Source: Flavobacterium sp. (GTDB lineage: Bacteria > Bacteroidota > Bacteroidia > Flavobacteriales > Flavobacteriaceae). From it: a DNA stretch of 47,112 nt. Shown here in pieces: positions 18,955 through 37,485 of the stretch. Numbering within the stretch: the first letter of the stretch is position 1; every line of letters starts with the position of its first letter. Under the pieces are notes generated by a model. It worked only from the letters and a program-made list of their open reading frames with translations. It made no database searches and was not told the origin of the DNA. Both the position numbers and the translations under genes were made by a program. The DNA is taken from positions 1 to 47,112 of the forward strand of contig JAGORP010000004.1 of the NCBI GenBank assembly GCA_018062725.1, given 5' to 3'.

Positions 18955-19029
18955 ATGAAAAATACATTAAAAAATATGATGGCGTTCATGATGATGTGGA
19001 GGAATTCCGCAGAGGACGCTATTGTATAA
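18955..19029 (+). CDS. Methionine-rich leader peptide of a transcription attenuator
   Basis: A 24-codon ORF with six Met codons after the start... two in NMMAF and three in FMMMW are the critical run, followed by RNSAEDAIV and stop. It starts 19 bases after a -7 element and is followed 20 bases later by an intrinsic terminator. GCAGAGG (19009-19015), inside the AED codons, can pair with CCTCTGC (19051-19057), the 5' arm of that terminator. A ribosome waiting at the Met codons leaves this segment free, giving read-through into the methionine genes. One reaching the stop codon covers it, giving termination. A second small hairpin joins ATTGTATA (19021-19028) to TATACAAT (19035-19042). The role is inferred from structure and from two sister elements in the window. 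Confidence 0.85.
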   Translation: MKNTLKNMMAFMMMWRNSAEDAIV

Positions 19030-19049
19030 ACTAATATACAATACAAGTC

Positions 19050-19077
19050 ACCTCTGCTTTTGCAGAGGTTTTTTTTT
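19050..19077 (+). terminator. Attenuator terminator of the Met leader
   Basis: CCTCTGC-TTTT-GCAGAGG followed by nine T residues. The 5' arm has an alternative partner in the leader ORF at 19009-19015. Confidence 0.9.
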
Positions 19078-19099
19078 ACAACACCTAAACAATCTTAAA

Positions 19100-20278
19100 A
19101 TGCAACTGGAAACATTATTAGCCAATATTACGCAACACTGTAACACGATAGATGCTTACGGAGCAACGCATCTTCCTATTTATAATACAGCAACATTCGA
19201 TTTAAAACGACAATTGGGTTGCGATAAAGTCTATGATTATTCCCGAACCGATAATCCTACTCGTAATGCATTGGAGGAAATTTTTACACTGGCAGAAAAT
19301 GGTTCGGGAGGTGTTTGTACCAATACAGGAATTGCGGCGATTTCTTTATTGTTTGAAACCGTTTTGCAATCGGGTGATGCGGTTTTAGTCGAAAAAGATT
19401 GCTACGGAGGAACGTATCGTTTACTGAATGTGCTTTTTGAAAAAAATAATATCAAAACGTTTTATGCCGATTTCACCGAAGAAAATGAAGTGGAGGAAAT
19501 TCTGAAAAACAATAGTATTCGATTGGTATTGTGTGAATCGCCCACCAACCCCGGATTAAAAATCATTGATTTGGAAAGCATAGCCAAAAAAGTGAAAAAG
19601 TATAATTCCTTGTTTGCGGTTGATAACAGCATGGCGACATTTGCTTCGCAACGACCCTTAGATTTGGGGGCAGACTTCTCTTTGTTTTCGGCTACTAAAT
19701 TTATTTCCGGACATGGCAGTGTGGTGGCGGGTGCTATTATTGCGAAATCTCCCGAATGGGCCGAAAAATTACAATATTTCTCTAATGCACAGGGAAGAGC
19801 CCAAAGTCCGTTTGATGTTTTTTTAGTGTCATTAGGCCTGCCAACATTGGTGTACCGAATGAAAACACAGGAACAAAGCGCCTTGCATTTAGCCCAATCG
19901 CTATTAGAAATCCCCGAAGTAATTGAGGTAAAATTCCCAGGTTTGCCGTCGCATCCGCAATATGAGTTGGTGAAAAAACAAATGAAAATTGTGCCTTCGG
20001 TGTTAACAGTACAATTTGAAAATCAAGAATTGGCTGAAGCAGTAATCAAAAACACCAAATTATTTGGAGAAAAGGTATCCTTCGGAACGGCGGATTCTCG
20101 TGTGGAAATTCCGGCAAGAATGAGTCATGCTACGTATTCGGAAGAAGATTTGAAGAAAATTGGATTAACAAAAGCGACTGTGCGAATTTCTGTGGGCTTG
20201 GAAGATACAGATGATCTTATTCAAGATTTGAAACAGGCAATTGCATCGGTGGTTTTAAAATGTGTAATTAATGAGTGA
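19100..20278 (+). CDS. metB: Cystathionine gamma-synthase / O-acetylhomoserine sulfhydrylase-type PLP enzyme
   Basis: 392 residues of the Cys/Met-metabolism PLP family. YDYSRTDNPTRNALE, SGGVCTNTGIAAI, ESPTNPGLKIID, VDNSMATF and the PLP lysine in FSATKFISGHGSVVAGAI are all present, as is the C-terminal SHATYSEEDLKKIG..VRISVGLED. Family members join an activated homoserine to cysteine or sulfide. The neighbouring metX makes O-acetylhomoserine, the likely substrate. Acceptor (cysteine or sulfide) cannot be told from sequence. ATG 19100 gives the normal N-terminus; an open frame upstream to 19022 runs through the terminator and is rejected. Expression should depend on read-through of the Met attenuator. 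Overlaps the next gene by 8 bases. Confidence 0.9.
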   Translation: MQLETLLANITQHCNTIDAYGATHLPIYNTATFDLKRQLGCDKVYDYSRTDNPTRNALEEIFTLAENGSGGVCTNTGIAAISLLFETVLQSGDAVLVEKDCYGGTYRLLNVLFEKNNIKTFYADFTEENEVEEILKNNSIRLVLCESPTNPGLKIIDLESIAKKVKKYNSLFAVDNSMATFASQRPLDLGADFSLFSATKFISGHGSVVAGAIIAKSPEWAEKLQYFSNAQGRAQSPFDVFLVSLGLPTLVYRMKTQEQSALHLAQSLLEIPEVIEVKFPGLPSHPQYELVKKQMKIVPSVLTVQFENQELAEAVIKNTKLFGEKVSFGTADSRVEIPARMSHATYSEEDLKKIGLTKATVRISVGLEDTDDLIQDLKQAIASVVLKCVINE

Positions 20279-21758
20279 TTATTTGTGTCATATCCCGTGT
20301 GGTGAATCGATTCCGTTCAATAATCCGCATGCGGTTTCGGTGAGTTTGCCAACACTTGCCGATGTGGTTGGTTATGAAGAAGGGGATATTGCGGTGGTTG
20401 GGAAAATGAAATCAGGTTATCCAAGGTTTTTCAGAAATCAATTGGTACAAAAGTTGGTGGAGTATGTGACAAGTCGTTTCGAAATTGCTCAAGATGTAGT
20501 TCTGCTTCCTATTACTTCGTTGAAAGCGTATGAAGTGCTGACTTATCTGATTAAGGATCAATTGGATTATGTGGAGTTGAACGGAAATATTTTCGTATTG
20601 CTGCATCAAAACGATTCGAAAATCCAACCCATTAAAGATTATATCCGAAACGCCGGATTGATTATCAGTTCGCGTCAAGCGGAAGCTACGTTGTTCGAGT
20701 TTGGGCTTTTGGAAAATATTTTTGCAGAAGAAAAATTAGAATCCGATGCATACAATGCTGTTGTGTTGGTTTTGTCTGAAGCGTATAAAGCAAAATCTGA
20801 AAATGTCATTCTGACGAATTCCGGAGCAAATGCTTTTTTTGCAGTTTGCGAAGCGTTGGTTGCTATTGAAAAATCAAAAGAGAAAAATACGATTGTTCAG
20901 TTGGGTTGGTTGTATGTTGATACGATGGAAGTCATTCAAAAAAGAAGCGGACAAACCCATTTGCAATTAAAAGTCCATGATCTGCAACAATTAGAAAACT
21001 GGCTGAAGGATAATCATTCAGAAGTGTCGGTTGTTATTACGGAAGTAGTTTCCAATCCTAAAATTCAATGTGTTGATATTATTACGTTGTATGCTATTTG
21101 CCAAAAATACCAAGTAAAATTGGTGCTAGATGCTACTTTGATAATGCCTTTTAATGCGCCAGTGTTGCAATATTGTGATGTGGCGGTGGAGAGTTTGTCG
21201 AAATTTGCTTGTGGAAAAGGAGATGTATTGATGGGAGCCATTATTATTTCGGAATCTTCAGGAATTTCTCCGGAGTTTTTTGATGATTTTGTAGTGCCTC
21301 CTTATGAAGGTGATGCTAACCGATTGGGTTTTGAAATTGCAGCGTATGAAAAAAGGGTGTTGCAATCTTCTGAAAATACCAAGCGATTAATTGAGTTGCT
21401 TTCTCAGAAAAAAGGAATTAAAAAAGTGTGGAGCGTTTTGGAAAATACTTCGGTCGGAAATTATAAAAAACTGAATAAATCGGGAGTCATTCCTGGATTA
21501 TTGACTTTAGAATTGGAAGATGATATTGCGCCATATTATGATTCGCTGAAAGTGGCCAAAGGACCAAGTTTAGGAACGGAATTTACTTTGGTAATGCCTT
21601 ATGTGTATCTAGCGCATTATGATTTGACAAAGACCGAAGAAGGTATCAAAATATTAAACGAAAAAGGAATGAATCCTAATATTTTAAGGGTTTCTGTGGG
21701 AGTTGAAAACATTGAAGCTATTATAAGATCTTTTGATTCGGTTTTCGAAGATTGGTGA
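20271..21758 (+). CDS. Second, fungal-type cystathionine gamma-synthase-like PLP enzyme
   Basis: 495 residues, about 100 longer than its neighbour. The C-terminal half has the PLP-family fold: VLDATLIMPF, lysine in VESLSKFACGKGDVLMGAI, and the family ending NPNILRVSVGVENIE. The N-terminal 70 residues (HAVSVSLPTLADVVGYEEGD, MKSGYPRFFRNQLVQKL) resemble, from memory, fungal cystathionine gamma-synthases of the Met-3/STR2 kind rather than bacterial MetB. The middle is divergent (YVELNGNIFVLLHQND). Overlapping translation with the first enzyme suggests a joint role, perhaps as a hetero-oligomer or as the next transsulfuration step; that is inference. No metC is seen nearby. Confidence 0.8.
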   Translation: MSDYLCHIPCGESIPFNNPHAVSVSLPTLADVVGYEEGDIAVVGKMKSGYPRFFRNQLVQKLVEYVTSRFEIAQDVVLLPITSLKAYEVLTYLIKDQLDYVELNGNIFVLLHQNDSKIQPIKDYIRNAGLIISSRQAEATLFEFGLLENIFAEEKLESDAYNAVVLVLSEAYKAKSENVILTNSGANAFFAVCEALVAIEKSKEKNTIVQLGWLYVDTMEVIQKRSGQTHLQLKVHDLQQLENWLKDNHSEVSVVITEVVSNPKIQCVDIITLYAICQKYQVKLVLDATLIMPFNAPVLQYCDVAVESLSKFACGKGDVLMGAIIISESSGISPEFFDDFVVPPYEGDANRLGFEIAAYEKRVLQSSENTKRLIELLSQKKGIKKVWSVLENTSVGNYKKLNKSGVIPGLLTLELEDDIAPYYDSLKVAKGPSLGTEFTLVMPYVYLAHYDLTKTEEGIKILNEKGMNPNILRVSVGVENIEAIIRSFDSVFEDW

Positions 21759-21854
21759 AAGAAGGGTAATACGGCTTTTTTGTAAATTAATCTTCTGTTA
21801 AAAATTCACAATAACGAATAAAAATCTATAATAAAATCAAAAACAAATAAAATT
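21759..21854. other. Spacer after the second PLP enzyme gene
   Basis: AT-rich, with no convincing terminator after the gene. It leads into the boxed Cys-leader promoter. Confidence 0.4.
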
Positions 21855-21905
21855 TAGACAAATAATCTTTGAAATTTGGAATTAAAGAAAATTAATCTAC
21901 ATTTG
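21855..21905 (+). promoter_or_regulatory. Cys-leader promoter with paired 15-bp boxes
   Basis: Box 1 TAGACAAATAATCTT (21855-21869), box 2 AAGAAAATTAATCTA (21885-21899), starts 30 bases apart. TTG (21876-21878) and TACATTTG (21898-21905) form a full promoter with a 19-base spacer. Box 2 overlaps the -7 element. Confidence 0.8.
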
Positions 21906-21924
21906 CAGTGTTAAATAAAGAGAA

Positions 21925-21993
21925 ATGAATCAGACTATTTGCAATACTTGTTGTTTTATGTGGAAGACTTCCGCGGAGGACTGTATTGTATAA
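21925..21993 (+). CDS. Cysteine leader peptide of a transcription attenuator
   Basis: A 22-codon ORF with Cys codons in ICNTCCFMW and one more in the ending KTSAEDCIV. The last 11 codons align with the Met leaders at 18955 and 33753 (MW..[SA]AED.I). GCGGAGG (21973-21979) can pair, with one G-U, with the terminator arm CCTCTGC (22019-22025). GTATTGT near the stop can pair with ACAATAC (22002-22008). Stalling at Cys codons when charged tRNA-Cys is short would favour read-through into the sulfate-assimilation genes. Inferred from architecture; too short for usual gene finders. Confidence 0.85.
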   Translation: MNQTICNTCCFMWKTSAEDCIV

Positions 21994-22014
21994 AATAGCT
22001 GACAATACATATCT

Positions 22015-22043
22015 AAAACCTCTGCCTAAAGCAGAGGTTTTTT
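22015..22043 (+). terminator. Attenuator terminator of the first Cys leader
   Basis: CCTCTGC (22019-22025), loop CTAAA, GCAGAGG (22031-22037), six T residues, with an A-run before the stem. Confidence 0.9.
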
Positions 22044-22075
22044 GTTTAAAAAACTCAAATACCAGTTAAATAATA

Positions 22076-22165
22076 ATGTCAAAAATAAATCTAAATAAAA
22101 TGTCAAACTGTTGTTGCAAGTGCTGTAAGTGCTCCAGCCAACTATTGCCGTATAGGAAGACTTAA
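22076..22165 (+). CDS. Second, strongly cysteine-rich leader peptide directly before cysH
   Basis: A 29-codon ORF containing NCCCKCCKCSS: six Cys codons within eight positions. The ending is QLLPYRKT. It starts 33 bases after the preceding terminator, too close for a separate consensus promoter, so it should lie on the same transcript. AGGAAGACT (22154-22162) at its 3' end can pair with AGTCCTTTT (22188-22196), the 5' arm of the next terminator, with one mismatch and two G-U pairs. The composition and position argue for a second cysteine attenuator in series. An internal ATG (22100) would give a shorter peptide keeping all the Cys codons. Confidence 0.85.
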   Translation: MSKINLNKMSNCCCKCCKCSSQLLPYRKT

Positions 22166-22185
22166 TCTAGTTATGTTCAAACTGT

Positions 22186-22222
22186 AAAGTCCTTTTGGTA
22201 ATAGTTCCAAAAGGACTTTTTT
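22186..22222 (+). terminator. Attenuator terminator of the second Cys leader
   Basis: AAAGTCCTTTTGG (22186-22198) pairs over 13 bp with CCAAAAGGACTTT, followed by T residues, 26 bases before cysH. Confidence 0.9.
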
Positions 22223-22247
22223 ATTTTAAAACAACAAACAAAAACAA

Positions 22248-22943
22248 ATGAACAGTAATTTTTTAAATCAATTAGCACAAATAGAAAATCTGGAAGAAGG
22301 ATTGCGTTTTCTGTCAGAAAATACAGATGATAAAATCGTTTTTTCCACCAGTTTCGGTATCGAAGATCAGGTCGTCAGCCATGCCATTTTCAGTCAGCCA
22401 TTAAAAAATATTGAAACTTTTACACTGGATACGGGAAGGTTGTTTCCAGAAACCTATGCCGTTTGGGATAAAACATTGTTGCAATACAATCAGCCTATAA
22501 GAGTGTATTATCCGGATACTGATAATTTGGAAGCCTATGTAAACAAAAACGGAATCAACGGGTTTTACAATTCGGTAAATCTTAGAAAAGAATGCTGTCA
22601 CATTAGGAAAGTGGTTCCGTTACAAAAAGCACTAAAAGGTGCAAAAATATGGATCACGGGTTTAAGAGCTGAGCAGTCGGATAACCGCAACGGTTTGGAA
22701 ATAATCCAATGGGATGAGCAAAATCAACTGTACAAATACAATCCCTTGCTGCACTGGACGACAGACGAAGTAGTACAGTATTTAAAACAAAAAGGAGTGC
22801 CTTACAATACGCTGCACGATCAAAATTTCATCAGTATTGGTTGCGCGCCTTGTACAAGAGCGGTTAAAATCGGAGAAGATTTCAGAGCCGGACGCTGGTG
22901 GTGGGAAGACCAATCCAAAAAAGAATGTGGGTTACATCAATAA
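22248..22943 (+). CDS. cysH: Assimilatory adenylyl-sulfate (APS) reductase
   Basis: Reduces activated sulfate to sulfite with thioredoxin electrons. 231 residues. FSTSFGIED (32-40) is the nucleotide-binding loop and TLDTGRLFPET (59-69) the family motif. CC (116-117) and CAPC (199-202) are the four iron-sulfur-cluster cysteines, which mark APS rather than PAPS reductases. ECGLH (226-230) carries the catalytic Cys. No APS kinase is seen in this operon, which agrees with direct APS reduction. First gene after the tandem Cys attenuators. Confidence 0.95.
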   Translation: MNSNFLNQLAQIENLEEGLRFLSENTDDKIVFSTSFGIEDQVVSHAIFSQPLKNIETFTLDTGRLFPETYAVWDKTLLQYNQPIRVYYPDTDNLEAYVNKNGINGFYNSVNLRKECCHIRKVVPLQKALKGAKIWITGLRAEQSDNRNGLEIIQWDEQNQLYKYNPLLHWTTDEVVQYLKQKGVPYNTLHDQNFISIGCAPCTRAVKIGEDFRAGRWWWEDQSKKECGLHQ

Positions 22944-23047
22944 AAAAATAGAAAACAGAAAAGATTTGAATAGCGTGCTTTGCGCATGTCATCATGAACT
23001 TGCCGAATGACCTTGCGCTCTTTGCGGTTAAAAAAAACAAAAAACAT
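22944..23047 (+). repeat. Intergenic repeat of the CTTTGCG type (copy 1)
   Basis: The spacer contains TAGCGTGCTTTGCGCATG and CTTGCGCTCTTTGCGGTTAAA. A related string precedes metH at 37641-37682. It is probably a repeat family spread through spacers of this genome and does not encode a protein. Confidence 0.5.
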
Positions 23048-23953
23048 ATGTCAACATCAAATAATTATTTAGAACAATTAGAAAACGAAGCCATTTATAT
23101 CCTTCGCGAAACGGCAGCACAGTTTGAAAAACCAGCCTTGTTGTTTTCAGGCGGAAAAGATTCAATCGTACTGGTGCATTTAGCATTGAAAGCCTTCCGA
23201 CCTGGGAAATTTCCATTTCCGTTGGTACATATCGACACCGGACATAATTTTCCGGAAGCCATCGCATTCCGAGATCAACTGGTGAATGAAATCGGCGAAA
23301 AACTAATCGTGGGTAATGTAGAAGACAGCATCAAAAAATACAATTTAAAAGAAACCGCAGGGAAATTTCCATCACGTAACGCATTGCAGACGTATACTTT
23401 GTTGGATACCATTCAGGAAAATGAATTTGATGCCTGCATTGGTGGTGCCCGTCGCGATGAAGAAAAAGCCAGAGCCAAAGAACGTATTTTTTCAGTACGT
23501 GATGATTTTGGTGCTTGGGATCCCAAACTGCAACGACCTGAATTATGGGATATCTTAAACGGAAAAGTGCAAAAAGGACATAATGTACGGGTATTTCCAA
23601 TTAGCAATTGGACCGAATTAGATGTGTGGAATTACATTCAGAAATACAACATTGAATTGCCGAGTCTGTACTTCGCCCACAATAGAGAATGTATCGTACA
23701 TCAGGACAAACTGGTAGCTACCTCGCAATTTATCCAACCGCAGGAAGGTGATGAAGTAGTGGTTGAAAAAGTACGCTACAGGACAGTAGGAGATATGACC
23801 TGTACCGCCGCAGTTCCTTCGGAAGCGACGACCATTCAAGATATTATTGAAGATATTATCCAAACCAGAATCAGCGAAAGAGGCCAAACACGTTTAGACG
23901 ATCAGCTTTCTGAAGCCGCCATGGAAGACCGAAAAAAACAAGGATATTTTTAA
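23048..23953 (+). CDS. cysD: Sulfate adenylyltransferase subunit 2
   Basis: Catalytic small subunit of ATP sulfurylase, making APS from sulfate and ATP. 301 residues from ATG 23048. An open frame from 22994 runs through a spacer repeat and is rejected. LLFSGGKDSIV (31-41) is the PP-loop. GGARRDEEKARAKERIFS and the C-terminal RGQTRLDDQ..AMEDRKKQGYF are typical of CysD. It works with CysN, encoded 62 bases downstream. Confidence 0.96.
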   Translation: MSTSNNYLEQLENEAIYILRETAAQFEKPALLFSGGKDSIVLVHLALKAFRPGKFPFPLVHIDTGHNFPEAIAFRDQLVNEIGEKLIVGNVEDSIKKYNLKETAGKFPSRNALQTYTLLDTIQENEFDACIGGARRDEEKARAKERIFSVRDDFGAWDPKLQRPELWDILNGKVQKGHNVRVFPISNWTELDVWNYIQKYNIELPSLYFAHNRECIVHQDKLVATSQFIQPQEGDEVVVEKVRYRTVGDMTCTAAVPSEATTIQDIIEDIIQTRISERGQTRLDDQLSEAAMEDRKKQGYF

Positions 23954-24015
23954 GAGAAAAGAAGGTAGTTGAAGGACTTTCGACATTCGACTTTAAAACT
24001 TTAAGACATAAAACA

Positions 24016-25248
24016 ATGAACACATTACGATTTATAACAGCAGGAAACGTAGACGATGGTAAAAGTACCTTGATCGGACGATTACTTTACGATTCCGATA
24101 GCATACACACCGACCAGTTAGGAGTTTTGCAAAAACAAACCAAACAAGAAGGAGTTGATATCGATTTGTCTTTAATCACAGACGGATTAAGAGCAGAACG
24201 CGAACAAGGAATTACCATCGATGTAGCCTATAAATATTTCTCGACAAAAAACAGAAAATTCATTATTGCCGATGCTCCCGGACATGAACAATACACCAGA
24301 AACATGATTACCGGTGCTTCCAATTCGGATTTGATTATCATTTTAGTCGATGCTAGAAAAGGGATTACCGAACAAACCAAACGTCACGCCAGTGTAGGTT
24401 CGTTGATGGGAATCAAAAAAGCCATTATTGCCGTGAATAAAATTGACTTACTGAATTATTCGGAAGCAACATTCAATGATATTCAAGCTGATTTCGAGAA
24501 AATCAAAAGTGAATTGAACTACGATGAGATAATCTACATTCCAGTAAGCGCACTGGTTGGAGATAATATTGTTCGAAAATCGGAAAATACACCTTGGTAC
24601 AACGGAAAAGCTTTATTGGAAACGTTAGAGGCAGTTGAAATAAAATCGACTCAAGAACTAGAATCGCGTTTTCAGGTGCAATGGGTAATCCGACCAAAAG
24701 ATGAAGCGAATCATGACTATCGTGGTTATGCGGGACCTGTATTGAGCGGAAGTTATCAGGTAGGCGATAAAGTAACGATTTTGCCGGCCCGCATAGAGTC
24801 AACTATAGTTAAAATCGAAAGAAACCAACAAGAAGTAAATCAGGTGGTGGCTGGTGATAACGTGGTGTTTCATTTTGAGAACAACATCGACATCAGTCGT
24901 GGCGATACGGTAGTGCTTAGTCATCAGTTGCCGGTTGAATCCAACCAAATCACCACATGGGTTTCTTGGTTAGACAACGCTTCGTTACAGGTAGGAAAAA
25001 CCTATTTATTACAACACCGTTTTAAAAATGTTAGAGTAAAAGTGCAGGAGGTTAACCGTAAATGGAATATCAACCAATGGCAGTTTACCGAAGGAGATTC
25101 GATTCAGTTAAATGATATCGCACAGGTAACCCTGAAAACCAATCAGTCGTTGTTTTATGATGCTTTTGATAAAAATTCAAAATCAGGGAACGCGGTTTTA
25201 ATAGATGAAACAAGTTATAATACAGTAGGAGCTTTAATGTTTTTGTAA
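24016..25248 (+). CDS. cysN: Sulfate adenylyltransferase subunit 1 (GTPase)
   Basis: GTPase subunit that drives APS formation by CysD. 410 residues, so it lacks a fused CysC (APS kinase) domain. G1 loop GNVDDGKST (10-18), G3 DAPGHEQYTRNM, G4 NKID, followed by EF-Tu-like beta barrels. The stop codon is one base before the cysE ATG. Confidence 0.95.
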   Translation: MNTLRFITAGNVDDGKSTLIGRLLYDSDSIHTDQLGVLQKQTKQEGVDIDLSLITDGLRAEREQGITIDVAYKYFSTKNRKFIIADAPGHEQYTRNMITGASNSDLIIILVDARKGITEQTKRHASVGSLMGIKKAIIAVNKIDLLNYSEATFNDIQADFEKIKSELNYDEIIYIPVSALVGDNIVRKSENTPWYNGKALLETLEAVEIKSTQELESRFQVQWVIRPKDEANHDYRGYAGPVLSGSYQVGDKVTILPARIESTIVKIERNQQEVNQVVAGDNVVFHFENNIDISRGDTVVLSHQLPVESNQITTWVSWLDNASLQVGKTYLLQHRFKNVRVKVQEVNRKWNINQWQFTEGDSIQLNDIAQVTLKTNQSLFYDAFDKNSKSGNAVLIDETSYNTVGALMFL

Positions 25249-25249
25249 T

Positions 25250-26065
25250 ATGAGCTATTCAATTTACTTAAAAAATCAGGAAAGAGCCAGAAATCCAATC
25301 AACAAAAACAAAGTTGAAGAATGGGTTGACGAATTGATCAATTGGTTGTTTGATATCAATCAGGAGTATAACAATTATCGATTTTTTCAGAATAAAGAAA
25401 AAGTACTCCAAATCAAACTTCAGGATATTTTGGCCAAAACGGTGGAAGACACCAATCAAATAGTAGTGTATGCCAATTATTTTTTCGAACAAATTGAGCA
25501 ATTGCATTATGTATTGGATAATGATTTGGATACCCTACTCAATTTTGATCCGGCGGCCAAATCAAAAGAAGAAGTATTAATAGCATATCCAGGGTTTTTT
25601 GCCATTACGGCGTACCGTATTGCCAATGTATTTTGGAAATTAAACGTGCCAGTCATGCCTCGAATTATTACCGAATATGTGCATAGCAAAACAGGAATAG
25701 ACATTCATCCGGGAGCAGAAATAGGAGAAAATTTTTTCATAGACCACGGTACCGGAATTGTAATCGGAGAGACTTCAAAAATTGGTAATAATGTAAAAAT
25801 TTACCAAGGGGTAACATTAGGTGCTTTGTCGGTTTCGAAAGATAGTGCTTCCGAAAAACGTCATCCAACGATTGAAAATAATGTCACGATTTATGCCAAT
25901 GCGACCATTTTGGGTGGAAATACAACAATTGGTGAAAATTCAATAATAGGAGGAAATGTATGGTTGACACATTCGGTGCCACAAGATTCCTTGGTATATC
26001 ATAAAAGTGAAATCGAAATCAAGAAAAAAAGCGAATTCCCGGAACCTTTGAATTACGTGATTTAA
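25250..26065 (+). CDS. cysE: Serine O-acetyltransferase
   Basis: Makes O-acetylserine, the carbon acceptor for sulfide. 271 residues: an alpha-helical N-terminal half (AYPGFFAITAYRIAN, 119-133 region) and a left-handed beta-helix of hexapeptides (IDIHPGAEIGENFFIDHGTG, QGVTLGAL, KRHPTIENNVTIYANATILG). The catalytic HDxxxG-like block is carried by IDHGTGIVIGE. It resembles the EpsC/plant-type branch more than E. coli CysE. Directly follows cysN. Confidence 0.93.
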   Translation: MSYSIYLKNQERARNPINKNKVEEWVDELINWLFDINQEYNNYRFFQNKEKVLQIKLQDILAKTVEDTNQIVVYANYFFEQIEQLHYVLDNDLDTLLNFDPAAKSKEEVLIAYPGFFAITAYRIANVFWKLNVPVMPRIITEYVHSKTGIDIHPGAEIGENFFIDHGTGIVIGETSKIGNNVKIYQGVTLGALSVSKDSASEKRHPTIENNVTIYANATILGGNTTIGENSIIGGNVWLTHSVPQDSLVYHKSEIEIKKKSEFPEPLNYVI

Positions 26066-26219
26066 CAAAAATTAGAAACAACACAATTAAAAATAAATAA
26101 AAAAAATGACTCGAGCCTGACCCGAGCTATTGCGAATTGGCGAAGCAAAGGCGACAGCATTGAGCACACACGAGCGTCAGCGAACTGACGAAGTAAATAA
26201 CAAATAAACACATAGCGAA
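26066..26219 (+). repeat. Spacer with small GC-richer palindromes before cysK
   Basis: 154 bases without a gene. CGTCAG-CGAA-CTGACG (26175-26190) is a perfect 6-bp hairpin with a 4-base loop, and CTCG/CGAG (26110-26126) another. The stretch is more GC-rich than the flanks. No T-run follows, so it is not an intrinsic terminator. It may be a small repeat element. Confidence 0.4.
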
Positions 26220-27128: not shown

Positions 27129-27233
27129 TCAATAAAACATAACGACATTACCTGACAGGTTTCGAAAACCTGTCAAGTGTAACTCTCAATCGAGTCAAAA
27201 CTGACCCGACAGGGACAACTCATACCTAAAACA
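27129..27233 (+). repeat. Spacer with a 10-bp palindrome before cobA
   Basis: TGACAGGTTT (27153-27162) and AAACCTGTCA (27166-27175) form a perfect stem with a 3-base loop and no T-run. A related ACTGACCCGACAGGG lies just after. Palindromes of this wording are, to my knowledge, common in Flavobacteriaceae spacers. Confidence 0.45.
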
Positions 27234-28055
27234 ATGGAAAGAAGTATAAAAAATATAGGAAAAGTAATCTTAGCGGGGGCAGGTCCGGGTGATCCCGATC
27301 TTATCAGTCTCAAAGCTTTGAAATACCTGCAAAAAGCAGATGTGGTCTTGACCGACCGATTGGTTTCGCCTCAACTTATTGAAAAATATGCTCGTAAAGA
27401 TGCCGAAATAATCTACGTAGGGAAACAGTGTTCTAAAGGAATCTGGACGCCTCAGCAGGATATTAACGAATTGATTGTGCTTTTCGCCCAACAAGGGAAA
27501 TTGGTACTCCGATTAAAAGGCGGCGATGCTACGTTGTTTTCCAATGTTTTGGATGAGTTACAGGTATTGGTTGAAAATAACATTCCGTATGAAATTATTC
27601 CAGGGATTTCGGCTGCTTTTGGGGCTGCTGCCTACACGGGAATTCCTTTAACGGCAAGAGAACATTCAAGAGGGGTGCGTTTTTTGACTTTGTATGATTT
27701 GAATACTGTGGCTCCAAATCAGTGGAACGATTGGGCAACTACCGAAGATACGTTGGTTTTTTATATGAGCGGTCAAAGGTTGAATACGTTGAGTCAACAA
27801 CTGCTTCATCATGGAATTGATTTGCAAAAGAGCATTGCAGTGGTACAACAAGCAACGACTCCTGATCAAAAAACAAGAGTATTTTCTTTTGAAGAAATTC
27901 AAAACGCAGCATTACCTGAATTTGAATACGTACCCACACTGCTGATTATCGGAAAAGTAGTCAATCTACACCATCAGTTTCAGTGGTTTACAGAAAAAAA
28001 TACAACAGAATCTTACTTCGATAATCATAAAACAATATATCAAAATGCTATCTGA
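27234..28055 (+). CDS. cobA: Uroporphyrinogen-III C-methyltransferase
   Basis: Methylates uroporphyrinogen III twice with SAM to precorrin-2, the first step to siroheme. 273 residues, a single SUMT domain: VILAGAGPGDPDLISLKAL (11-29) with the SAM-binding loop, DRLVSP, VGKQ, RLKGGDATLF and PGISAAFGAAAYTGIPLTAR. It sits between cysK and the sulfite reductase genes, whose beta subunit needs siroheme; the next enzyme of the route is the fusion protein at 32140. Overlaps cysJ by 11 bases. Confidence 0.95.
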   Translation: MERSIKNIGKVILAGAGPGDPDLISLKALKYLQKADVVLTDRLVSPQLIEKYARKDAEIIYVGKQCSKGIWTPQQDINELIVLFAQQGKLVLRLKGGDATLFSNVLDELQVLVENNIPYEIIPGISAAFGAAAYTGIPLTAREHSRGVRFLTLYDLNTVAPNQWNDWATTEDTLVFYMSGQRLNTLSQQLLHHGIDLQKSIAVVQQATTPDQKTRVFSFEEIQNAALPEFEYVPTLLIIGKVVNLHHQFQWFTEKNTTESYFDNHKTIYQNAI

Positions 28056-29709
28056 AACAAAACATAATTTATTGGAACAATTGGTGCAAAACGCCACCAA
28101 TGAAGAACTTATCTACACCAAAGGATATTTGGCAGGATATTTAGCCGGGAATTTCGGAATCAAAACGAATGTGCCTGCCATTCAAAATAATGTCCCCGCA
28201 GTAGCAGTAAAACCGTTAATTGTGTATGGTACGGAAACAGGAAATTCTAAAAAAGTAGCATCACAAATTCAGGCGACTTTCAAGAAAAATAAAATTCAGG
28301 CAAAAAGTGTCGATGTCGCACAATTCGATTTGGCTAAACTGCAAAAAGAAACGCTGGTTTTATTTGTTGTAAGCACGCAAGGCGAAGGCGAATTTCCGCA
28401 AAATGCCGTCGGTTTTTACGAGGCGTTAAAAGCATTTGAGGGGAATTTAGATAAAATATCGTTTGCCGTTTTTGGCTTAGGCGATTCCTCTTATCCATTG
28501 TTCTGTAATGCGGGAGTGTTGTTAGATGAAGTTTTAGCCGATAAGGGCGCAAAACGTTTGTTGCCGTTGGTGAAAGCCGATGTAGATTATGCGAGTTTAA
28601 TTTCGATATGGGAAAGTGACTTGCAAAATACTTTTAGTACTTCAGGTACAACTGTTTCTTCTGAAGCAAAAAAGACTGTGGCAAGTACTTCGCACAAGCA
28701 AAATTTTACAGGACAAATCAGTCATAAAATCGTCTTGAATGACAGAGGTTCCAACAAAGAAACCTACCATATCGAAATTACGCCAAACGAAGAAGTAATA
28801 TATGAACCGGGAGATGCTTTAGGGTTGATTCCGAAAAATAACGAAAGCGAATTGACAACAATAGCGGCTCATTTTGGTCAAACTGATTTTTCAGAATTGA
28901 AAGATAAAAATGTTCGCGGATTGTCTAAAAAATCATTAGAATCTTTAGAAGAAGTATTCGAAATTGAAATCAAAGAAGAAAAAGCCGATTTGGTGGATGT
29001 GATTCAAAAATACCACCCTAAAAAAGGTACTTTTAATGAAGTTGTAGCTTTATTACATCCCATCGCACCAAGGTTGTATTCTATTTCATCTGCTTCAGAA
29101 GCACACGACGGACAAGTGCATCTCACGGTAAATTTGAATGAATTTAAAGTAGGTGAAGCCGTAAAAACCGGTTTGACTTCTCAGTTTTTGGCGGATTATC
29201 CTTTGGATGCCGATTATGATTTCTATATCCACAAAAACAACAATTTCCGATTGCCTTCTGATGAAACGGATATAATTCTGATTGGTCCCGGAACCGGTAT
29301 TGCACCTTTTAGAAGTTTCTTGGCGCAGCGCGACACAGCAGGTGCCGAAGGTAAAAATTGGTTGTTTTTTGGTGAACAGCATTTTGCTTTAGATTTTTAC
29401 TACCAAACCGAAATTCAGGAATGGCTTTCAACAGGTGTGTTAACCAAATTGAGTACGGCTTTTTCAAGAGATCAGGAGCGTAAAATTTATGTTCAGGACC
29501 GCATCAAAGAAAACGCCACCGAGTTTAATGCATGGCTGGAAAACGGCGCAAGTATTTACATCTGCGGTCAAAAAGATCCAATGAGCAAAGATGTTGAAAA
29601 TACAATTGTTGAAGTCATTGCTCAACAACGAAATATTTCAACAGCCCAAGCAAAAGAAGTTTTAGAAGCACTCGAAAATCAAGGAAAGTATCAGAAGGAT
29701 GTATATTAA
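28045..29709 (+). CDS. cysJ: Sulfite reductase flavoprotein (CysJ-like, diflavin reductase)
   Basis: Passes electrons from NADPH via FAD and FMN to the sulfite reductase hemoprotein. 554 residues. The flavodoxin domain starts at VYGTETGNSKKVA (60-72). The FAD motif RLYSIS begins at 343, the NADPH-binding GPGTGIAPFR at 414, and YICGQKDPMSKDVENTI lies near the end. It has a short N-terminal helical segment and ends with KYQKDVY, as CysJ proteins do. Confidence 0.93.
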   Translation: MLSETKHNLLEQLVQNATNEELIYTKGYLAGYLAGNFGIKTNVPAIQNNVPAVAVKPLIVYGTETGNSKKVASQIQATFKKNKIQAKSVDVAQFDLAKLQKETLVLFVVSTQGEGEFPQNAVGFYEALKAFEGNLDKISFAVFGLGDSSYPLFCNAGVLLDEVLADKGAKRLLPLVKADVDYASLISIWESDLQNTFSTSGTTVSSEAKKTVASTSHKQNFTGQISHKIVLNDRGSNKETYHIEITPNEEVIYEPGDALGLIPKNNESELTTIAAHFGQTDFSELKDKNVRGLSKKSLESLEEVFEIEIKEEKADLVDVIQKYHPKKGTFNEVVALLHPIAPRLYSISSASEAHDGQVHLTVNLNEFKVGEAVKTGLTSQFLADYPLDADYDFYIHKNNNFRLPSDETDIILIGPGTGIAPFRSFLAQRDTAGAEGKNWLFFGEQHFALDFYYQTEIQEWLSTGVLTKLSTAFSRDQERKIYVQDRIKENATEFNAWLENGASIYICGQKDPMSKDVENTIVEVIAQQRNISTAQAKEVLEALENQGKYQKDVY

Positions 29710-29756
29710 TAATTAAGCTAATAGCTAAATGCTAATAGCTGAAAGCTAAAAATAAA
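29710..29756 (+). repeat. GCTAATAGCT-type spacer repeat
   Basis: AGCTAATAGCTAAATGCTAATAGCTGAAAGCT fills the 47-base spacer as imperfect tandem words of about 8 bases. Confidence 0.5.
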
Positions 29757-31400
29757 ATGAGCGAAAAATTATCAGCAGTAGAATATATCAAGACCAAAAG
29801 TGATGGTCTTAGAGGGACTTTAAAGGAAAGTATCGATGTAGATAACCACACCGGAAATGTACGTCCGGATGATGAAACGTTGGTGAAGTTCCACGGAATG
29901 TACGTGCAAGACGACCGTGATCGTCGCGCCGAAAGAGCGGCAAAAAAATTAGACAAACTGTATTCGTTTATGATTCGTTTGCGAATTCCAGGTGGCGTAA
30001 TTAATGCTGATCAATGGTTGGCCACACACGAAATTTCAGAACAATACGGAACAGGAACGTTAAAAATCACAACCCGACAAACGGTGCAATTACACGGCTT
30101 GTTGAAACATCAATTGCGACCAACAATTCAGGCTTTCAATACCGCTAAACTGGATTCGATTGCGGCGTGTGGGGACGTGAATCGGAATGTGATTGTGAGT
30201 TCGCATCCTCAAATTTCGCCTATTCATCAGCAGATTTATGAATATGCCGATAAAATTTCAACCTTGCTTTTGCCTAAAACGCAATCGTATTATGAAGTGT
30301 TTATTGATGGAGAAAAGATTTACGAACGTTCTTCCGAAGCTGATCCGTTGTATGAAGATCGATATCTGCCAAGGAAATTCAAAATCGGTATCGCGATTCC
30401 GCCAAGTAATGATGTGGATGTGTTTACCAATGATATCGGACTGATTGCGATTCTTGAAAATGATGAGCTTAAAGGATTCAATATTGCTATTGGCGGCGGA
30501 TTGGCAACGACTCACGGTAACCCAAATACGTATTCGCGATTGGGAAGTATCATCGGATTTACCGATACGGAAGAAAAAACATTAAAAGCAGTATATGAAA
30601 TTTTAACAGTGCAACGTGACTTTGGAAATCGTGTCGACAGAAAATTATCACGTTTGAAATATACAGTCGATAAATTAACGGTAGAAGGTTTCAAAAAAGA
30701 GTTGGAAAACCGAATCGGATTCGAACTGGAGCCAGAAAGACCTTACAAGTTCACCGAAAGAAGCGACCGTTTTGGTTGGGAGCAAAACCATCAAGGAAAA
30801 TGGTTTTATACTTTGTTTGTCGAACACGGAGTGGTACAGCCGCAGCAGAAACAGTTTTTGTACGAATTGGCGCTATTGAATATCAGTAATTTCATATTCT
30901 CAGGAAATCAAAACCTGATTTTGGGAGAAATTAAGGAAAGCGATAAGGCAAAAGTGGAAACTTTATTGAAGGAACATAATATCGAAAAACAAGTGAGCGC
31001 ATTGCGTCAAAATTCGATGGCGTGTGTGGCCTTGCCGACTTGTCCGTTAGCCTTGGCAGAAGCACAACGTTATTTGCCAGAATTGGTGACGAAAATAGAG
31101 CCATTGTTGGAAAAATACAGTTTAACAAACGATGAAATTACCATTCGTATGACGGGCTGTCCAAATGGATGTGGCCGTCCGTATGTGGCCGAATTAGGTT
31201 TTGTAGGTACCGGTCCCGAACAATATAATTTCATGTTGGGTGGTGATCGTTTCGGAGAAAGACTGAATAAAATCTACAAGGAAAAACAAACAGAATCCCA
31301 GATTTTAGAAGAAATAGATGTTTTATTAGGAAGATATGTCAACGAAAAGTTCGAAAAAGAAACATTTGGTGACTACGCTTACCGCGCAATTTTACAGTAA
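29757..31400 (+). CDS. cysI: Sulfite reductase hemoprotein (nitrite/sulfite reductase family)
   Basis: Reduces sulfite to sulfide by six electrons on a coupled siroheme and 4Fe-4S centre. 547 residues with two ferredoxin-like/hemoprotein repeats. Cluster cysteines are C423 and C429 (CVALPTC) and C468 and C472 (TGCPNGCGRP). TLKITTRQTVQLHG (101-114) is the siroheme/substrate region. Neighbouring cysJ and siroheme genes favour sulfite over nitrite as substrate. The stop shares one base with the next ATG. Confidence 0.94.
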   Translation: MSEKLSAVEYIKTKSDGLRGTLKESIDVDNHTGNVRPDDETLVKFHGMYVQDDRDRRAERAAKKLDKLYSFMIRLRIPGGVINADQWLATHEISEQYGTGTLKITTRQTVQLHGLLKHQLRPTIQAFNTAKLDSIAACGDVNRNVIVSSHPQISPIHQQIYEYADKISTLLLPKTQSYYEVFIDGEKIYERSSEADPLYEDRYLPRKFKIGIAIPPSNDVDVFTNDIGLIAILENDELKGFNIAIGGGLATTHGNPNTYSRLGSIIGFTDTEEKTLKAVYEILTVQRDFGNRVDRKLSRLKYTVDKLTVEGFKKELENRIGFELEPERPYKFTERSDRFGWEQNHQGKWFYTLFVEHGVVQPQQKQFLYELALLNISNFIFSGNQNLILGEIKESDKAKVETLLKEHNIEKQVSALRQNSMACVALPTCPLALAEAQRYLPELVTKIEPLLEKYSLTNDEITIRMTGCPNGCGRPYVAELGFVGTGPEQYNFMLGGDRFGERLNKIYKEKQTESQILEEIDVLLGRYVNEKFEKETFGDYAYRAILQ

Positions 31401-32147
31401 TGAGAAGAATTGTTTTAGTGGCTTTTTTCTTGTTTCCAAAATTTCTTTCGGCACAAAAAAAAAGTAGAACATCAGCAGTTGATTTGGTACGGCTATTACA
31501 ACATAGTAAAATTTAATGAAAATTGGTCGTTGTTAAGCGAAATTCAAGAGCGTCAGTTTTACAATCCAACGGCCCAACACCAGTTGGTTTTTCGATCGAA
31601 TTTGGAACGAAAATTAGCAGCAAATTGGAGTGCTTCGGGCGGATTGACGCTGTTTTTGCAAAATCCAAATAATCCTGAATCAGAAAACAATCTAACAGTT
31701 CCCGAATTGCGCCCCGATATCGGATTCAATAGTAAACAGAAGCTAGATTTTTTAACGATAACGCATCGCTATAAAGCGGAGGCCCGATTTTTTCATGATG
31801 TGGAAAATAATCAGTTATCAGGCGGTTTTCGGTTTTCAAATTTCCGATTGAGATACCAGTTAGGGTTTGATTTTCCACTTTGGAAAAAAGAAGAAAAAGA
31901 AAAGTTGAGTCTTAAACTGAAAGATGAAATAATGTTTAATATCGGAAAAAAAGTGGTTAAAAACAATTTCGATCAAAACAGAATCTATCTCGGGTTGCAT
32001 TATAAATTAAATGATTCCTATGCAGTAGAAATGGGTTATATGAACTGGTTTCAACAACAAAAGACAGGTGTTGATTTTTACAATAGAGATATTTTACGAT
32101 TCTCACTATTTCACACCATCGATTTAAAAAAGAAAAACAATGACTAA
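31400..32147 (+). CDS. DUF2490 family outer-membrane protein, apparent frameshift at an A9 run
   Basis: ATG 31400 overlaps the cysI stop and opens a signal peptide (MRRIVLVAFFLFPKFLSAQ), but this frame closes soon after 31500. A second frame, shifted by one base, then encodes a normal DUF2490 body (VEHQQLIWYGYYNIVKFNENW to the end at 32147). The switch point is a run of nine A at 31455-31463; eight A would give one continuous protein of about 248 residues. A sequencing error, a real mutation or slippage on the A-run would each explain it. DUF2490 proteins are predicted small barrels of unknown function. Overlaps the next gene by 8 bases. If the signal peptide is ignored, translation from ATG 31479 would give a cytoplasmic fragment. 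Confidence 0.75.
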
Positions 32148-33594
32148 TACACTTTTCCCAGTTTTTTTAAAAACAGAAACGGCTCATTTTTTAATTGTAG
32201 GCGGAGGCAATGTGGGTTTGGAAAAAACCGAAACCTTATTACGACAAAATCCTACTATTCGAATTACGTTGGTGGCGACCTATTTTCATCCGAAAGTGAT
32301 TGAAATTGGTGCTCAAAACAATAATGTAGTGCTTTTGGAAAGACCGTTCGAGAGCACAGATGTTTTAGAAAAGGATTTTGTCATTATCGCAACCGATGTA
32401 CCTATTCTAAATGCTAGAATCAGGGAATTGGCCAAAGCCGAAGGAATCAAAGTCAACGCTGCCGATCAGCCTGATTTATGTGATTTTTACTTAGGGTCAA
32501 TTGTGAATAAAGGCAGCTTGAAAATTGCCATATCAACCAATGGGAAATCGCCGGTTTTAGCCAAAAGAATGCGGGAATATTTTACCGATGTCATCCCGGA
32601 TGGAATTGATAAAAGTATTGATCAGTTAAATCAGTACAGAAGGGAACATAAAGGTGATTTTGGTCAAAAATTAGCTGATTTAAACAAAGCAACAGCAAGT
32701 CTTTCTTCTAAAAAAAGAGAAAAAACAGCCGCTAAAAAATACCAGAAATTGGTCTTTGAAATTACGCTTTTGTTCATGGTTTTCTTTATCGGTTTTGGAC
32801 TTTCTAAGTTTATTACCTTTGATGAAGCGAGTTCTTATTTTCAGCAAATTCCTAGTGTTTTCTTCGGAATGCTTTTGGTTGGTTTTTTTGCGCAATTAGT
32901 TGATGGCGCTTTAGGTTTGGGCTATGGAGTGACGTGTTCTACGAGCATGATGTTACTCGGAATCAAATTGCCGGCCATCAGTGGAAGTATTCACACTGCC
33001 GAAATGTTTTCCAGCGGAATCAGCGGTTTTTCGCATTATAAATTCGGAAATGTCAACAAGAAGTTGTTTTTCTGGATTGCCATTCCAGGTGTCGTTGGTG
33101 CGGTGGCAGGGGCTTTATTGCTGATTTATCTCGGTAATAAATTCGAAGCCATTACCTATGGAATCTTGGCAAGTTATACCTTATTGATTGGAATACGTTT
33201 GGTTATTTTGGCTTTCAGAAAGAAAATCGAAAAGAAAAAACTGAAAAACACTGGCTTTCTTGGTTTCTCAGGAGGTTTTTTCGATGCTTTCGGCGGTGGC
33301 GGTTGGGGACCTATTGTGACGTCAACGTTACTATCCAAAGGAAGAAAATCCAACTATGTGATTGGGACGGTAAGTTTAGCCGAATTTTTTGTCACACTCG
33401 CGGCATCTGTTACTTTTTTTACCGCCTTGGGAATAAGTCATTGGTATATTATTTTAGGATTGATTTTGGGAGGTGCTGCCGCTGCACCTATCGGAGCAAG
33501 ATTGTCAGGCAAGTTGCCTCAAAAAACAGCCTTACTTTTAGTGGCTTTCTTGGTAATTGTCTTCAGTATAAGAATGTTGCTAAAAATATTTTAA
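32140..33594 (+). CDS. Fusion of siroheme-synthase (precorrin-2 dehydrogenase) domain and TSUP/TauE-SafE membrane transporter
   Basis: 484 residues in two parts. Residues 1-200 are a CysG N-terminal-like domain: FLIVGGGNVGLEK (17-29) binds NAD, Asp109 in NAADQPDLCDF matches the catalytic Asp of CysG/Met8p, and ISTNGKSPVLAKRMRE (131-146) completes the active site. This part should oxidise precorrin-2 and perhaps insert iron. After a Lys-rich linker (190-203), about 204-484 form some eight membrane helices of the TSUP family (DGALGLGYGV, GGFFDAFGGGGWGPI), which move sulfite, sulfonates or sulfur anions. Siroheme formation and sulfur transport are joined in one chain, last in the cys operon. Transport substrate and direction are inferred only from context. 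Confidence 0.92.
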   Translation: MTNTLFPVFLKTETAHFLIVGGGNVGLEKTETLLRQNPTIRITLVATYFHPKVIEIGAQNNNVVLLERPFESTDVLEKDFVIIATDVPILNARIRELAKAEGIKVNAADQPDLCDFYLGSIVNKGSLKIAISTNGKSPVLAKRMREYFTDVIPDGIDKSIDQLNQYRREHKGDFGQKLADLNKATASLSSKKREKTAAKKYQKLVFEITLLFMVFFIGFGLSKFITFDEASSYFQQIPSVFFGMLLVGFFAQLVDGALGLGYGVTCSTSMMLLGIKLPAISGSIHTAEMFSSGISGFSHYKFGNVNKKLFFWIAIPGVVGAVAGALLLIYLGNKFEAITYGILASYTLLIGIRLVILAFRKKIEKKKLKNTGFLGFSGGFFDAFGGGGWGPIVTSTLLSKGRKSNYVIGTVSLAEFFVTLAASVTFFTALGISHWYIILGLILGGAAAAPIGARLSGKLPQKTALLLVAFLVIVFSIRMLLKIF

Positions 33595-33684
33595 CGTGAA
33601 AAGGACCGATGTTAGAATTATTTCAATTTGAAATAAATTTAAATAGACAAATAAACTAATATAAATAAAATAACAAGCAAAATT
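33595..33684. other. AT-rich spacer after the cys operon
   Basis: About 90 bases with no gene and no clear terminator stem, ending at the boxed promoter of the second Met leader. Confidence 0.4.
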
Positions 33685-33735
33685 TAGAAAAATAATCTAC
33701 AATATTTTTTTAATTAGAAAAACATTCTACATTTG
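33685..33735 (+). promoter_or_regulatory. Second Met-leader promoter with paired 15-bp boxes
   Basis: Box 1 TAGAAAAATAATCTA (33685-33699) and box 2 TAGAAAAACATTCTA (33715-33729), both perfect TAGA-N7-TCTA, have starts 30 bases apart. Box 2 runs into TACATTTG (33728-33735). No good -33 TTG. Confidence 0.8.
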
Positions 33736-33752
33736 CCCTGTAAATAAATGAC

Positions 33753-33821
33753 ATGAGAACAATGTTTTGCAATATGACAATGATGATGTGGCTGTATGCC
33801 GCAGAGGATGCTATTGCCTAA
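33753..33821 (+). CDS. Second methionine-rich leader peptide of a transcription attenuator
   Basis: A 22-codon ORF with Met codons in TMFCNMTMMMW, then LYAAEDAIA and stop. It has the MW..[SA]AED.I ending of the leaders at 18955 and 21925. GCAGAGG (33801-33807) can pair with CCTCTGT (33847-33853), the 5' arm of the following terminator. The genes that follow are metX and the aspartokinase/homoserine dehydrogenase, so methionine shortage would raise synthesis of acetylhomoserine. One Cys codon is also present. Confidence 0.85.
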   Translation: MRTMFCNMTMMMWLYAAEDAIA

Positions 33822-33844
33822 TTTTAAGTATAAAATTTCAATAC

Positions 33845-33872
33845 AACCTCTGTTACTAACAGGGGTTTTTTT
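33845..33872 (+). terminator. Attenuator terminator of the second Met leader
   Basis: AACCTCTGTT (33845-33854) and AACAGGGGTT (33858-33867) pair over 10 bp with one U-G, followed by T residues. Confidence 0.88.
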
Positions 33873-37462: not shown

Positions 37463-37485
37463 CCCTGTTCATAAACATATTGTTT

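Follow-up and report, generated by a model that had tools for sequence, protein, structure and literature searches.

The trp and his attenuators of Escherichia coli are ribosome-mediated, and join a leader open reading frame (ORF) carrying regulatory codons to a terminator. Here, we describe elements of similar design in a 47,112-nucleotide stretch of Flavobacterium sp. DNA (GenBank assembly GCA_018062725.1, contig JAGORP010000004.1; the whole stretch is called the window): three leader ORFs rich in Met or Cys codons (leaders 1 to 3, or A1 to A3), each built with a shared set of RNA arms that we call module A. We consider it very probable that these three elements are ribosome-mediated transcription attenuators, in which stalling at the Met/Cys codons would free the arm CCGCrGAGG to pair with CCUCUGC. 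Unlike the trp/his type, module A would sense methionine, cysteine or both, has arm sequences of its own, recurs with differing sensors in one genome, and often stands in series with a second module. If this reading is correct, it adds a Met-codon attenuator with all three helices backed by covariation, a switch module that a single genome employs with more than one kind of sensor, and two unrelated attenuators in series.

Mycobacteria reportedly carry polycysteine leader ORFs that are leaderless, to go by the title of Canestrari 2020. Like the elements described here, they place a short ORF with a Cys run before cys genes, and mycobacterial Cys leader ORFs have also been predicted (PMC1262725). 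In the available parts of these descriptions they come without a conserved terminator, whereas here terminators and antiterminators are clear and, in contrast to leaderless transcripts, 47 of 87 leaders have a predicted promoter box some 27 nt ahead of the ATG. In Streptomyces lividans, metL is a proposed Met leader peptide before metNIQ (PMC8079986); it differs from module A in gene, in phylum and, in the accessible part of that account, in lacking a typical Rho-independent terminator. A study of structured 5' regions in Flavobacterium psychrophilum reports strong indications that amino acid operons are preceded by leader-peptide attenuators (PMC9723704); the accessible main text does not contain the word 'methionine', and the supplement may list some of these elements. 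Rfam family RF01692 (Bacteroid-trp) is a trp-type leader family that we compared by name only. Among the literature matches listed, which comprise titles and the starts of abstracts and leave most subscription journals outside, there was no Met/Cys leader attenuator in Bacteroidetes.

Architecture and covariation of module A

Module A has four regions: region 1 (UGUGG), which the sensor codons directly precede; region 2 (CCGCrGAGG), within the final third of the leader ORF; region 3 (CCUCUGC), past the stop codon; and region 4, which closes the terminator with a T run. These pair as UGUGG:CCGCA (1:2), GCrGAGG:CCUCUGC (2:3) and CCUCUG:CAGRGG (3:4, the terminator), and helix 2:3, the antiterminator, is mutually exclusive with both of the others. 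Within the antiterminator lies an AU-rich inner helix, formed in leader 1 by UAUUGUAU and AUACAAUA. The 1:2 hairpin accounts for the Met-Trp pair that stands ahead of the conserved leader end.

All three window copies lie on the forward strand. Leader A1 (MKNTLKNMMAFMMMWRNSAEDAIV, 18955..19029, Met sensor) carries region 1 at 18995..18999 and region 2 (CCGCAGAGG) at 19007..19015, followed by region 3 (ACCUCUGC) at 19050..19057 and by region 4 with its T run, the terminator 3' arm, at 19062..19077. In leader A2 (MNQTICNTCCFMWKTSAEDCIV, 21925..21993, Cys sensor), region 1 occupies 21959..21963, region 2 (CCGCGGAGG) 21971..21979 and the terminator, regions 3 and 4, 22015..22041; the corresponding positions for leader A3 (MRTMFCNMTMMMWLYAAEDAIA, 33753..33821, Met sensor) are 33787..33791, 33799..33807 (again CCGCAGAGG) and 33845..33867. 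Region 1 is placed by the 1:2 helix, region 2 by pattern match and 2:3 covariation, and the terminators by terminator calls and 3:4 covariation, with 2:3 covariation in addition for region 3 of A1. Boxes of the form TAnnTTTG, a sigma-A consensus according to the accessible part of PMC9723704, were read from the sequence at 18928..18935 (TAATTTTG), 21898..21905 (TACATTTG) and 33728..33735 (TACATTTG), starting 27, 27 and 25 nt ahead of the respective ATG. Across the 87 leader upstreams the exact box sits at a median of 27 nt before the ATG, and shuffled upstreams contain it in 4% of cases; the 12 bases directly before the ATG are A-rich.

The original prediction had named leader ORFs starting at 18955, 21925 and 33753, with a common ending whose GCrGAGG is complementary to a following CCUCUG(C/U), and all of this is present as claimed. 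Its Met and Cys sensor runs are there as well, except that leader 3 is not purely Met and has one Cys codon besides. The antiterminator and terminator also stand. What it had missed is the 1:2 hairpin, the AU-rich helix inside the antiterminator, the promoter boxes and, before cysH, a further Cys-rich leader with a terminator of its own.

The core pattern CCGCRGAGGAYNNTATTGN{12,42}CCTCTG has three matches in the window and none in 100 dinucleotide shuffles. For leaders 1, 2 and 3, predicted energies are -18.9, -14.4 and -16.7 kcal/mol for the antiterminator, -13.6, -12.4 and -10.0 kcal/mol for the terminator, and -6.0, -6.1 and -8.6 kcal/mol for the 1:2 hairpin. The same pattern, which fixes the arms and leaves the sensor and the Met-Trp pair free, found 16 sites on 15 stretches of a genome collection, titled Flavobacterium, Kordia, Saonia or Flavobacteriaceae; Kordia and Saonia are members of the Flavobacteriaceae, so that all 15 belong to this family. 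Each of the 16 sites falls within an open frame that has an ATG and contains Met or Cys codons. The exact pattern had no match in viral contigs, and no match was found in plasmids (one 2 kb query) or phages (one 201-base query).

The 16 sites and the three window copies formed a seed alignment of 19 sequences (A1 alignment), from which we built a covariance model, R1, that encodes 1:2 and 3:4 but not 2:3, and that starts at AUGUGG so that the remaining sensor codons lie outside it. A second model, R2, was built from 50 hits (alignment A3), and covariation was measured on these 50 aligned elements with 500 shuffles per helix. All three helices show compensatory changes. Helix 2:3, although absent from R1, is paired in 92.8% of cells with 14 double-change cells, and its covariation score is 0.170 as against 0.066 for shuffles and 0.017-0.124 for slid versions; helix 1:2 is paired in 90.8% of cells with 10 double-change cells (nine of them G-C to U-A), and helix 3:4 in 99.5% with 44. 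For every helix, both the number of double-change cells and the covariation score lie above all 500 shuffles. Telling cases are GCAGCG with CCGCUGC and GCAGCGG, GCAAGGG with CCCUUGC and GCAAGGG (L067), GCGAAGG with CCUUUGC (L061) and, in 1:2, UGUGG/CCGCA versus UGUGU/ACGCA. One group uses different arms altogether (CAGGA/UCCUG, CUGUGGG and CCUCCCAC in L093 and L094, with related ones in L097, L110 and L112). The predicted fold holds at least six of the 2:3 pairs in 48 of the 50 elements, its mean energy is -14.4 kcal/mol versus -8.0 with region 2 shuffled (native lower in 50 of 50), and the 1:2 hairpin is predicted at -1 kcal/mol or better in 49. A covariance-model search of the Flavobacteriaceae thus bears out the expected conservation, both of the leader ORFs and of an antiterminator that the model does not contain.

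Sensor codons, downstream genes and relatives

Some of the Flavobacteriaceae carry module A, with Met, Cys or mixed sensors, ahead of genes for sulfur amino acids. R1 matched 34 of 397 genomes in an even draw from the family (E<=1e-4), likely an undercount because only 10 candidates were scored per genome, and within the genus R2 had matches in 30 of 41 genomes (E<=0.001). Reading these 30 by eye, we take the ATG leader as real in 27; one genome (G418) carries arms and metY without an ATG leader, another (G428) has neither, and G435 (L100/L128, 45 bits) was not inspected. A class-level even draw gave 5 of 395 genomes (R2, E<=1e-5, 10 candidates scored each). For gene-wise counts, 106 hits less three duplicates left 103, from which 14 were dropped by downstream gene, the counts being limited to loci before reference sulfur genes, an OsmC-like gene or a TonB receptor; one of these 14 is an asnA case discussed below (L111, 53 bits) and the other 13 scored 41-49 bits, the range (about 41-49) in which R2 also catches plain terminators. 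Among R1 hits below about 41 bits, eight were inspected and excluded, being leaderless or chance hits, L026 (36.5 bits) was retained for its CMMMMCC leader before cysH, and further ones, including L041, L030, L025, L029 and L033, were left out uninspected. Of the resulting 89 loci, one with a transposase-like neighbour (L054) was kept by hand, and all but L099 have an ATG leader; the automatic leader choice is wrong for L071, where a better ORF exists, and truncated for L026. In 61 of these 88 leaders the stop codon ends 36 nt past the first base of AUGUGG.

Between start and region 1 the 88 leaders hold 917 codons, of which 230 are Met and 118 Cys (348 of 917 together), as compared with 1.9% Met/Cys in 11 window proteins. 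At least three Met/Cys codons occur in 74 of 88 leaders versus 50 of 1702 other short ORFs of the same loci, counted over residues 2-11. The composition largely follows the pathway: metB leaders have Met only (n=6; mean 4.0 Met, 0 Cys; at least three Met/Cys in 6/6), cysH leaders mostly Cys (n=5; 1.0 Met, 2.8 Cys; 5/5) and metY leaders both (n=50; 3.1 Met, 1.5 Cys; 49/50). Means for metX are 2.6 Met and 0.6 Cys (n=10; at least three in 7/10), for cysE 1.5 and 3.0 (n=2; 2/2), and for TonB-receptor leaders 2.0 and 1.75 (n=4; 4/4). Among leaders before met genes, Met outnumbers Cys in 49 of 66, and among those before cys genes in 1 of 7 (p=0.003). That the leaders are Met- and Cys-specific, as originally predicted, is therefore true of metB and of the window's cysH and not throughout, many relatives being mixed, above all at metY; the companion claim, that genes sit behind matching sensors, largely agrees with the downstream genes, the OsmC-like ones being an exception in that their leaders hold few such codons.

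Sensor codons may hint at the pathway of poorly understood genes, TonB-receptor genes being one example. Leaders of the form ..NMMSCKMPE[FY]SAE[TI]LL precede a TonB-dependent receptor gene in L053, L089, L091 and L092 (from about 1500 onward); a Plug domain was detected in L053, and the other loci were recognised through a common sequence stretch. Their position behind module A suggests that these receptors are tied to Met/Cys or B12 supply. Module A copies with few Met/Cys codons, several accompanied by a second module, stand before an OsmC-like gene in L005, L007, L012, L079, L102 and others. In L005, L007 and L012 metX comes after the OsmC-like gene, which hints at a tie between the OsmC-like protein and methionine synthesis.

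The O-acetylhomoserine sulfhydrylase gene metY (the L058 copy is over the TIGR01326 cut-off) offers a natural comparison, in that some relatives place a SAM-sensing riboswitch before it and others the predicted tRNA-charging sensor. We found metY in 77 of 120 family genomes and analysed 76 upstreams, 30 as loci from the metY search and 46 fetched separately, omitting G042, whose gene is divided between contigs, and a second gene copy in G023. Counting as SAM-I (S-box, RF00162) any Rfam match within 600 nt upstream on the same strand, 12 loci have an R2 leader only, 53 have SAM-I only, none has both and 11 have neither. The exclusion, with none of the 12 leader-bearing loci carrying SAM-I, has a Fisher p of 4.4e-8, or 2.4e-7 without one weak leader of 43.5 bits, both uncorrected for ancestry. 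Seven of the 11 loci with neither presumably have the end of metK directly upstream, judged by eye; the other four comprise a SAM-II riboswitch, a diverged leader (L201, by eye), a transposase-like start and one undefined case. Whereas SAM-I senses SAM directly, the predicted signal of module A is tRNA charging, and metY thus makes the choice that a lineage has made between the two sensors directly testable. In genome G012, leaders of both modules are followed by an ORF that we take to be transposase-like (L054) and metY lies near the end of another contig (L135), as if an insertion element had parted the leaders from metY.

Leaders for other amino acids occur in the same family. The R2 hit L111 (587-678) has the leader MILRSNNFSANNNLNNSIRSGRLLH and precedes asnA (over the TIGR00669 cut-off), a gene matched in 5 of 60 family genomes. 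Among the four of these five upstreams that were examined by way of tblastn, L129, L130 and L131 carry Asn-rich leaders followed by terminators, as a tandem pair in L129 and L130, and L132 showed no such leader. The first leader of L129 and L130 ends in ..IV before the stop, like many module A leaders, and we read the asnA leaders, from their sequences, as probably the same architecture with an Asn sensor. Across 12 chosen flavobacterial genomes, His-run leaders precede hisG in 10 of 10 loci and leaders with three Trp codons precede trpE in 9 of 10 (the tenth has two), all with arms of their own; among these loci (L210-L219, L220-L229) some have a UAUUGU-like stretch past region 2, as module A does. 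Five of seven ilvD loci were looked at, and their upstreams gave no convincing leader.

Module B, mechanism and competing explanations

In many loci the leader-A terminator is followed by another ORF, which has at least four Met/Cys codons, and by a second terminator. This module B is a probable second attenuator, unrelated in sequence to module A, that stands in series with it before metY, OsmC-like genes and cysH. In the window it lies before cysH (22076-22219, forward strand) as a Cys-rich leader ORF (MSKINLNKMSNCCCKCCKCSSQLLPYRKT, 22076..22165; 75.2 bits with the module B model R3, whose own alignment includes it), region 2 (AACUAUUGCCG, 22140..22150) and region 3 (UGGUAAUAGUU, 22196..22206, in part within the terminator loop), both placed by pairing tests, and a terminator at 22186..22219 placed by terminator call and covariation; an example before metY (L055) is MKKAMNNMMMRDMMMSMMMRHMNRYCQNRI. 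The original image of a fixed switch with a changeable sensor therefore holds for module A and is incomplete for the many loci in which module B follows.

Module B candidates were found at 41 of 51 metY, 6 of 10 OsmC-like, 3 of 10 metX, 3 of 5 cysH, 1 of 2 cysE, 0 of 6 metB and 0 of 4 TonB-receptor loci and at the single other locus, and three of the 55 (L080, L082 and L084, all at metY) have no terminator. As a rough control, the 900 nt before metY contain a 13-45-residue ORF with at least four Met/Cys in 12 of 12 leader loci, which in some loci is leader A itself, and in 6 of 64 other upstreams, none then followed by a terminator.

The module B antiterminator pairs the leader tail cUAUURCCaaa with uuuGGYAAUAg in the terminator arm and loop. 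Of the 52 candidates with a terminator, 39 had the core for a flank test and 41 entered an alignment (A4), so that covariation leans to the better cases, the 11 omitted sequences being mostly more diverged. In A4, helix 2:3 is paired in 83.5% of cells with 28 double-change cells, reached by none of 500 shuffles, and the terminator in 99.0% with 36; coarser 2:3 measures were reached by 10 (double-change pairs) and 58 (further types) of 500 shuffles, and breaks are frequent in its outer pairs (22, 16 and 14 of about 40). Flank pairing is 91 versus 58.4 for shuffles: the loop partners, which the terminator itself could dispense with, match their own leader better than any of 10000 shuffles. Complementarity over the whole tail is weaker, the own partner exceeding the swapped mean in 38 of 52.

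R3 matched 24 of 40 genus genomes (E<=0.001). Among 17 inspected matches, seven precede metY, four metX and two an OsmC-like gene, and four resemble plain terminators; in four of the 13 others (L263, L265, L268 and L273) the best ORF has fewer than four Met/Cys. Modules A and B can part, since G403, G405, G407 and G414 carry module A before the TonB-receptor gene and module B about 3 kb further on, before metY.

The window elements combine an ORF with sensor codons, an intrinsic terminator, an antiterminator exclusive with it and a 1:2 hairpin, and the genes behind them make the sensed amino acid; the OsmC-like and TonB-receptor loci fall outside this last statement. We propose that with enough charged tRNA the ribosome would reach the stop codon and cover part of region 2, so that 3:4 terminates transcription. 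With too little, it would halt on the Met/Cys codons over region 1, 2:3 would form and polymerase would read into the gene; with no translation, 1:2 would form and 3:4 would again terminate. Given general ribosome footprint sizes, a ribosome whose A site holds the last Met codon would extend just to the border of region 2, and a ribosome at the stop codon would partly cover that region.

Modules A and B would act in series. More tentatively, and giving it somewhat less than even weight, we suggest a modular tRNA-charging switchboard in which modules A and B in series, with exchangeable codon runs (Met, Cys, both, or Asn before asnA), replace SAM-I at metY and in which the Met versions act as band-pass switches. 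The last point follows from methionine also starting every peptide: a mild Met shortage would stall the ribosome and open the gene, and a severe one would stop leader initiation and close it.

Several points weigh against reading module A as an attenuator. No exact promoter box precedes 40 of the 87 leaders, and none of the OsmC-like leaders (n=10; mean 0.5 Met, 1.0 Cys) has at least three Met/Cys codons. The Cys class numbers seven leaders, four of them close orthologues and three of the seven mixed, so that the match of gene and sensor rests on few independent cases. Counts of double-change pairs and of further pair types were matched by 67 to 178 of 500 shuffles across the three helices, for 2:3 by an unremarkable 105 (pairs) and 178 (pair types), and the signal therefore sits in few pairs changed across many sequences. 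The shuffles leave shared ancestry in place and, as all 19 seeds match the arm-fixing pattern, the covariation stems from the other 31 sequences; within 2:3, the outer pair 27-102 is broken in 8 of 50 and the inner pair 33-96 in 12 of 49. Finally, the mechanism assumes that transcription and translation are sufficiently coupled in Bacteroidetes.

The alternative that survives best, though we think it improbable, is that the leaders act mainly on downstream translation or via Rho, and that the hairpins are plain terminators or sites of processing; in Mycobacterium smegmatis, translation attenuation is described for cysteine genes in the accessible part of PMC13236596. Against this, the 3:4 stem is kept in 99.5% of cells with a T run behind it, and mechanically chosen gene starts lie 1 to 865 nt past the element (22, 201 and 87 nt in the window), so that many are far from the leader, often behind a second terminator.

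A still smaller probability attaches to the idea that the ending MW..SAED, common to all three window leaders, is a functional peptide, such as an arrest peptide, to which RNA pairing is secondary. The CGCAG(A)G arm is AED-like in 56 of 88 leaders, but 17 read it in an alternative frame (PQR, PQS, PQG or TQR) and 15 otherwise; the CGCAGAGG RNA, for instance, occurs in an alternative frame in L012, L069, L072, L074, L075, L080 and others. It is thus the RNA that is kept, as had been predicted for this ending, and we reject conservation at the peptide level. In nine sequences, moreover, Trp becomes Cys (UGG to UGU) together with a C to A change in the facing arm.

We give equally little credence to a metabolite riboswitch, for SAM or another ligand, that acts while the ORFs are incidental. 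SAM-I and SAM-II do occur elsewhere in the window, and SAM-I before metY in the 53 loci counted above, but no Rfam family, SAM aptamers and known leader families included, matches the elements at its gathering score, and on this ground we reject a riboswitch. Phe_leader (24.1 of 55 bits) aside, sub-threshold Rfam matches are weak and to unrelated families, and the Met/Cys codon runs are far above the short-ORF control. That the hairpins merely terminate the genes before them and the short ORFs are products of chance is barely credible: R2 does pick up plain terminators, but a promoter box precedes the leader ATG in about half of the cases, and leader, pairing and sensor are conserved jointly.

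The sulfur amino-acid island

By profile matches of the window proteins, the neighbourhood of 18955..33872 is a sulfur amino-acid island. Its genes run metK (reverse strand), metB-like, a second Cys_Met_Meta_PP gene, cysH, cysD, cysN, cysE-like, cysK, cobA, cysJ-like, cysI, DUF2490, a gene for a cysG N-terminal domain, metX-like, thrA, metH (in two parts) and metF, '-like' marking genes whose best named model scores under its cut-off. Leader A1 precedes the metB-like gene (19100..20278; Cys_Met_Meta_PP, with all NCBIfam matches under cut-off) and A2 the cysteine/sulfate genes from cysH to the cysG N-terminal-like gene (22248..33594), which share a single direction and, we infer, form one operon. 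Leader A3 stands before the metX-like gene and thrA (33962..37353), where the best match for metX is NF001209 MetX, under cut-off, and thrA is over its cut-off; all of these genes are on the forward strand. Rfam places a SAM-II riboswitch upstream of metK (18654-18714, reverse strand) and a SAM-I riboswitch upstream of metH (37484-37590, forward strand). The island thus has SAM riboswitches on genes of the SAM cycle and codon-rich leaders on its other pathway parts, at metB, the cys genes and metX-thrA.

Two further features of the island are of note. Upstream of metX, at 33916-33951, is a hairpin of 13 pairs with a T run, whose loop resembles module B (UUUGGCAUUAG); no leader ORF was seen ahead of it, its R3 score is 28 bits, and the relatives L106 and L001 keep a hairpin before metX with an altered stem. 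The second Cys_Met_Meta_PP protein (20271-21758) is 495 aa long, with the Pfam domain spanning residues 175-492; among NCBIfam models BesB matches it best, over residues 19-493, at 313.9 bits versus a cut-off of 800.

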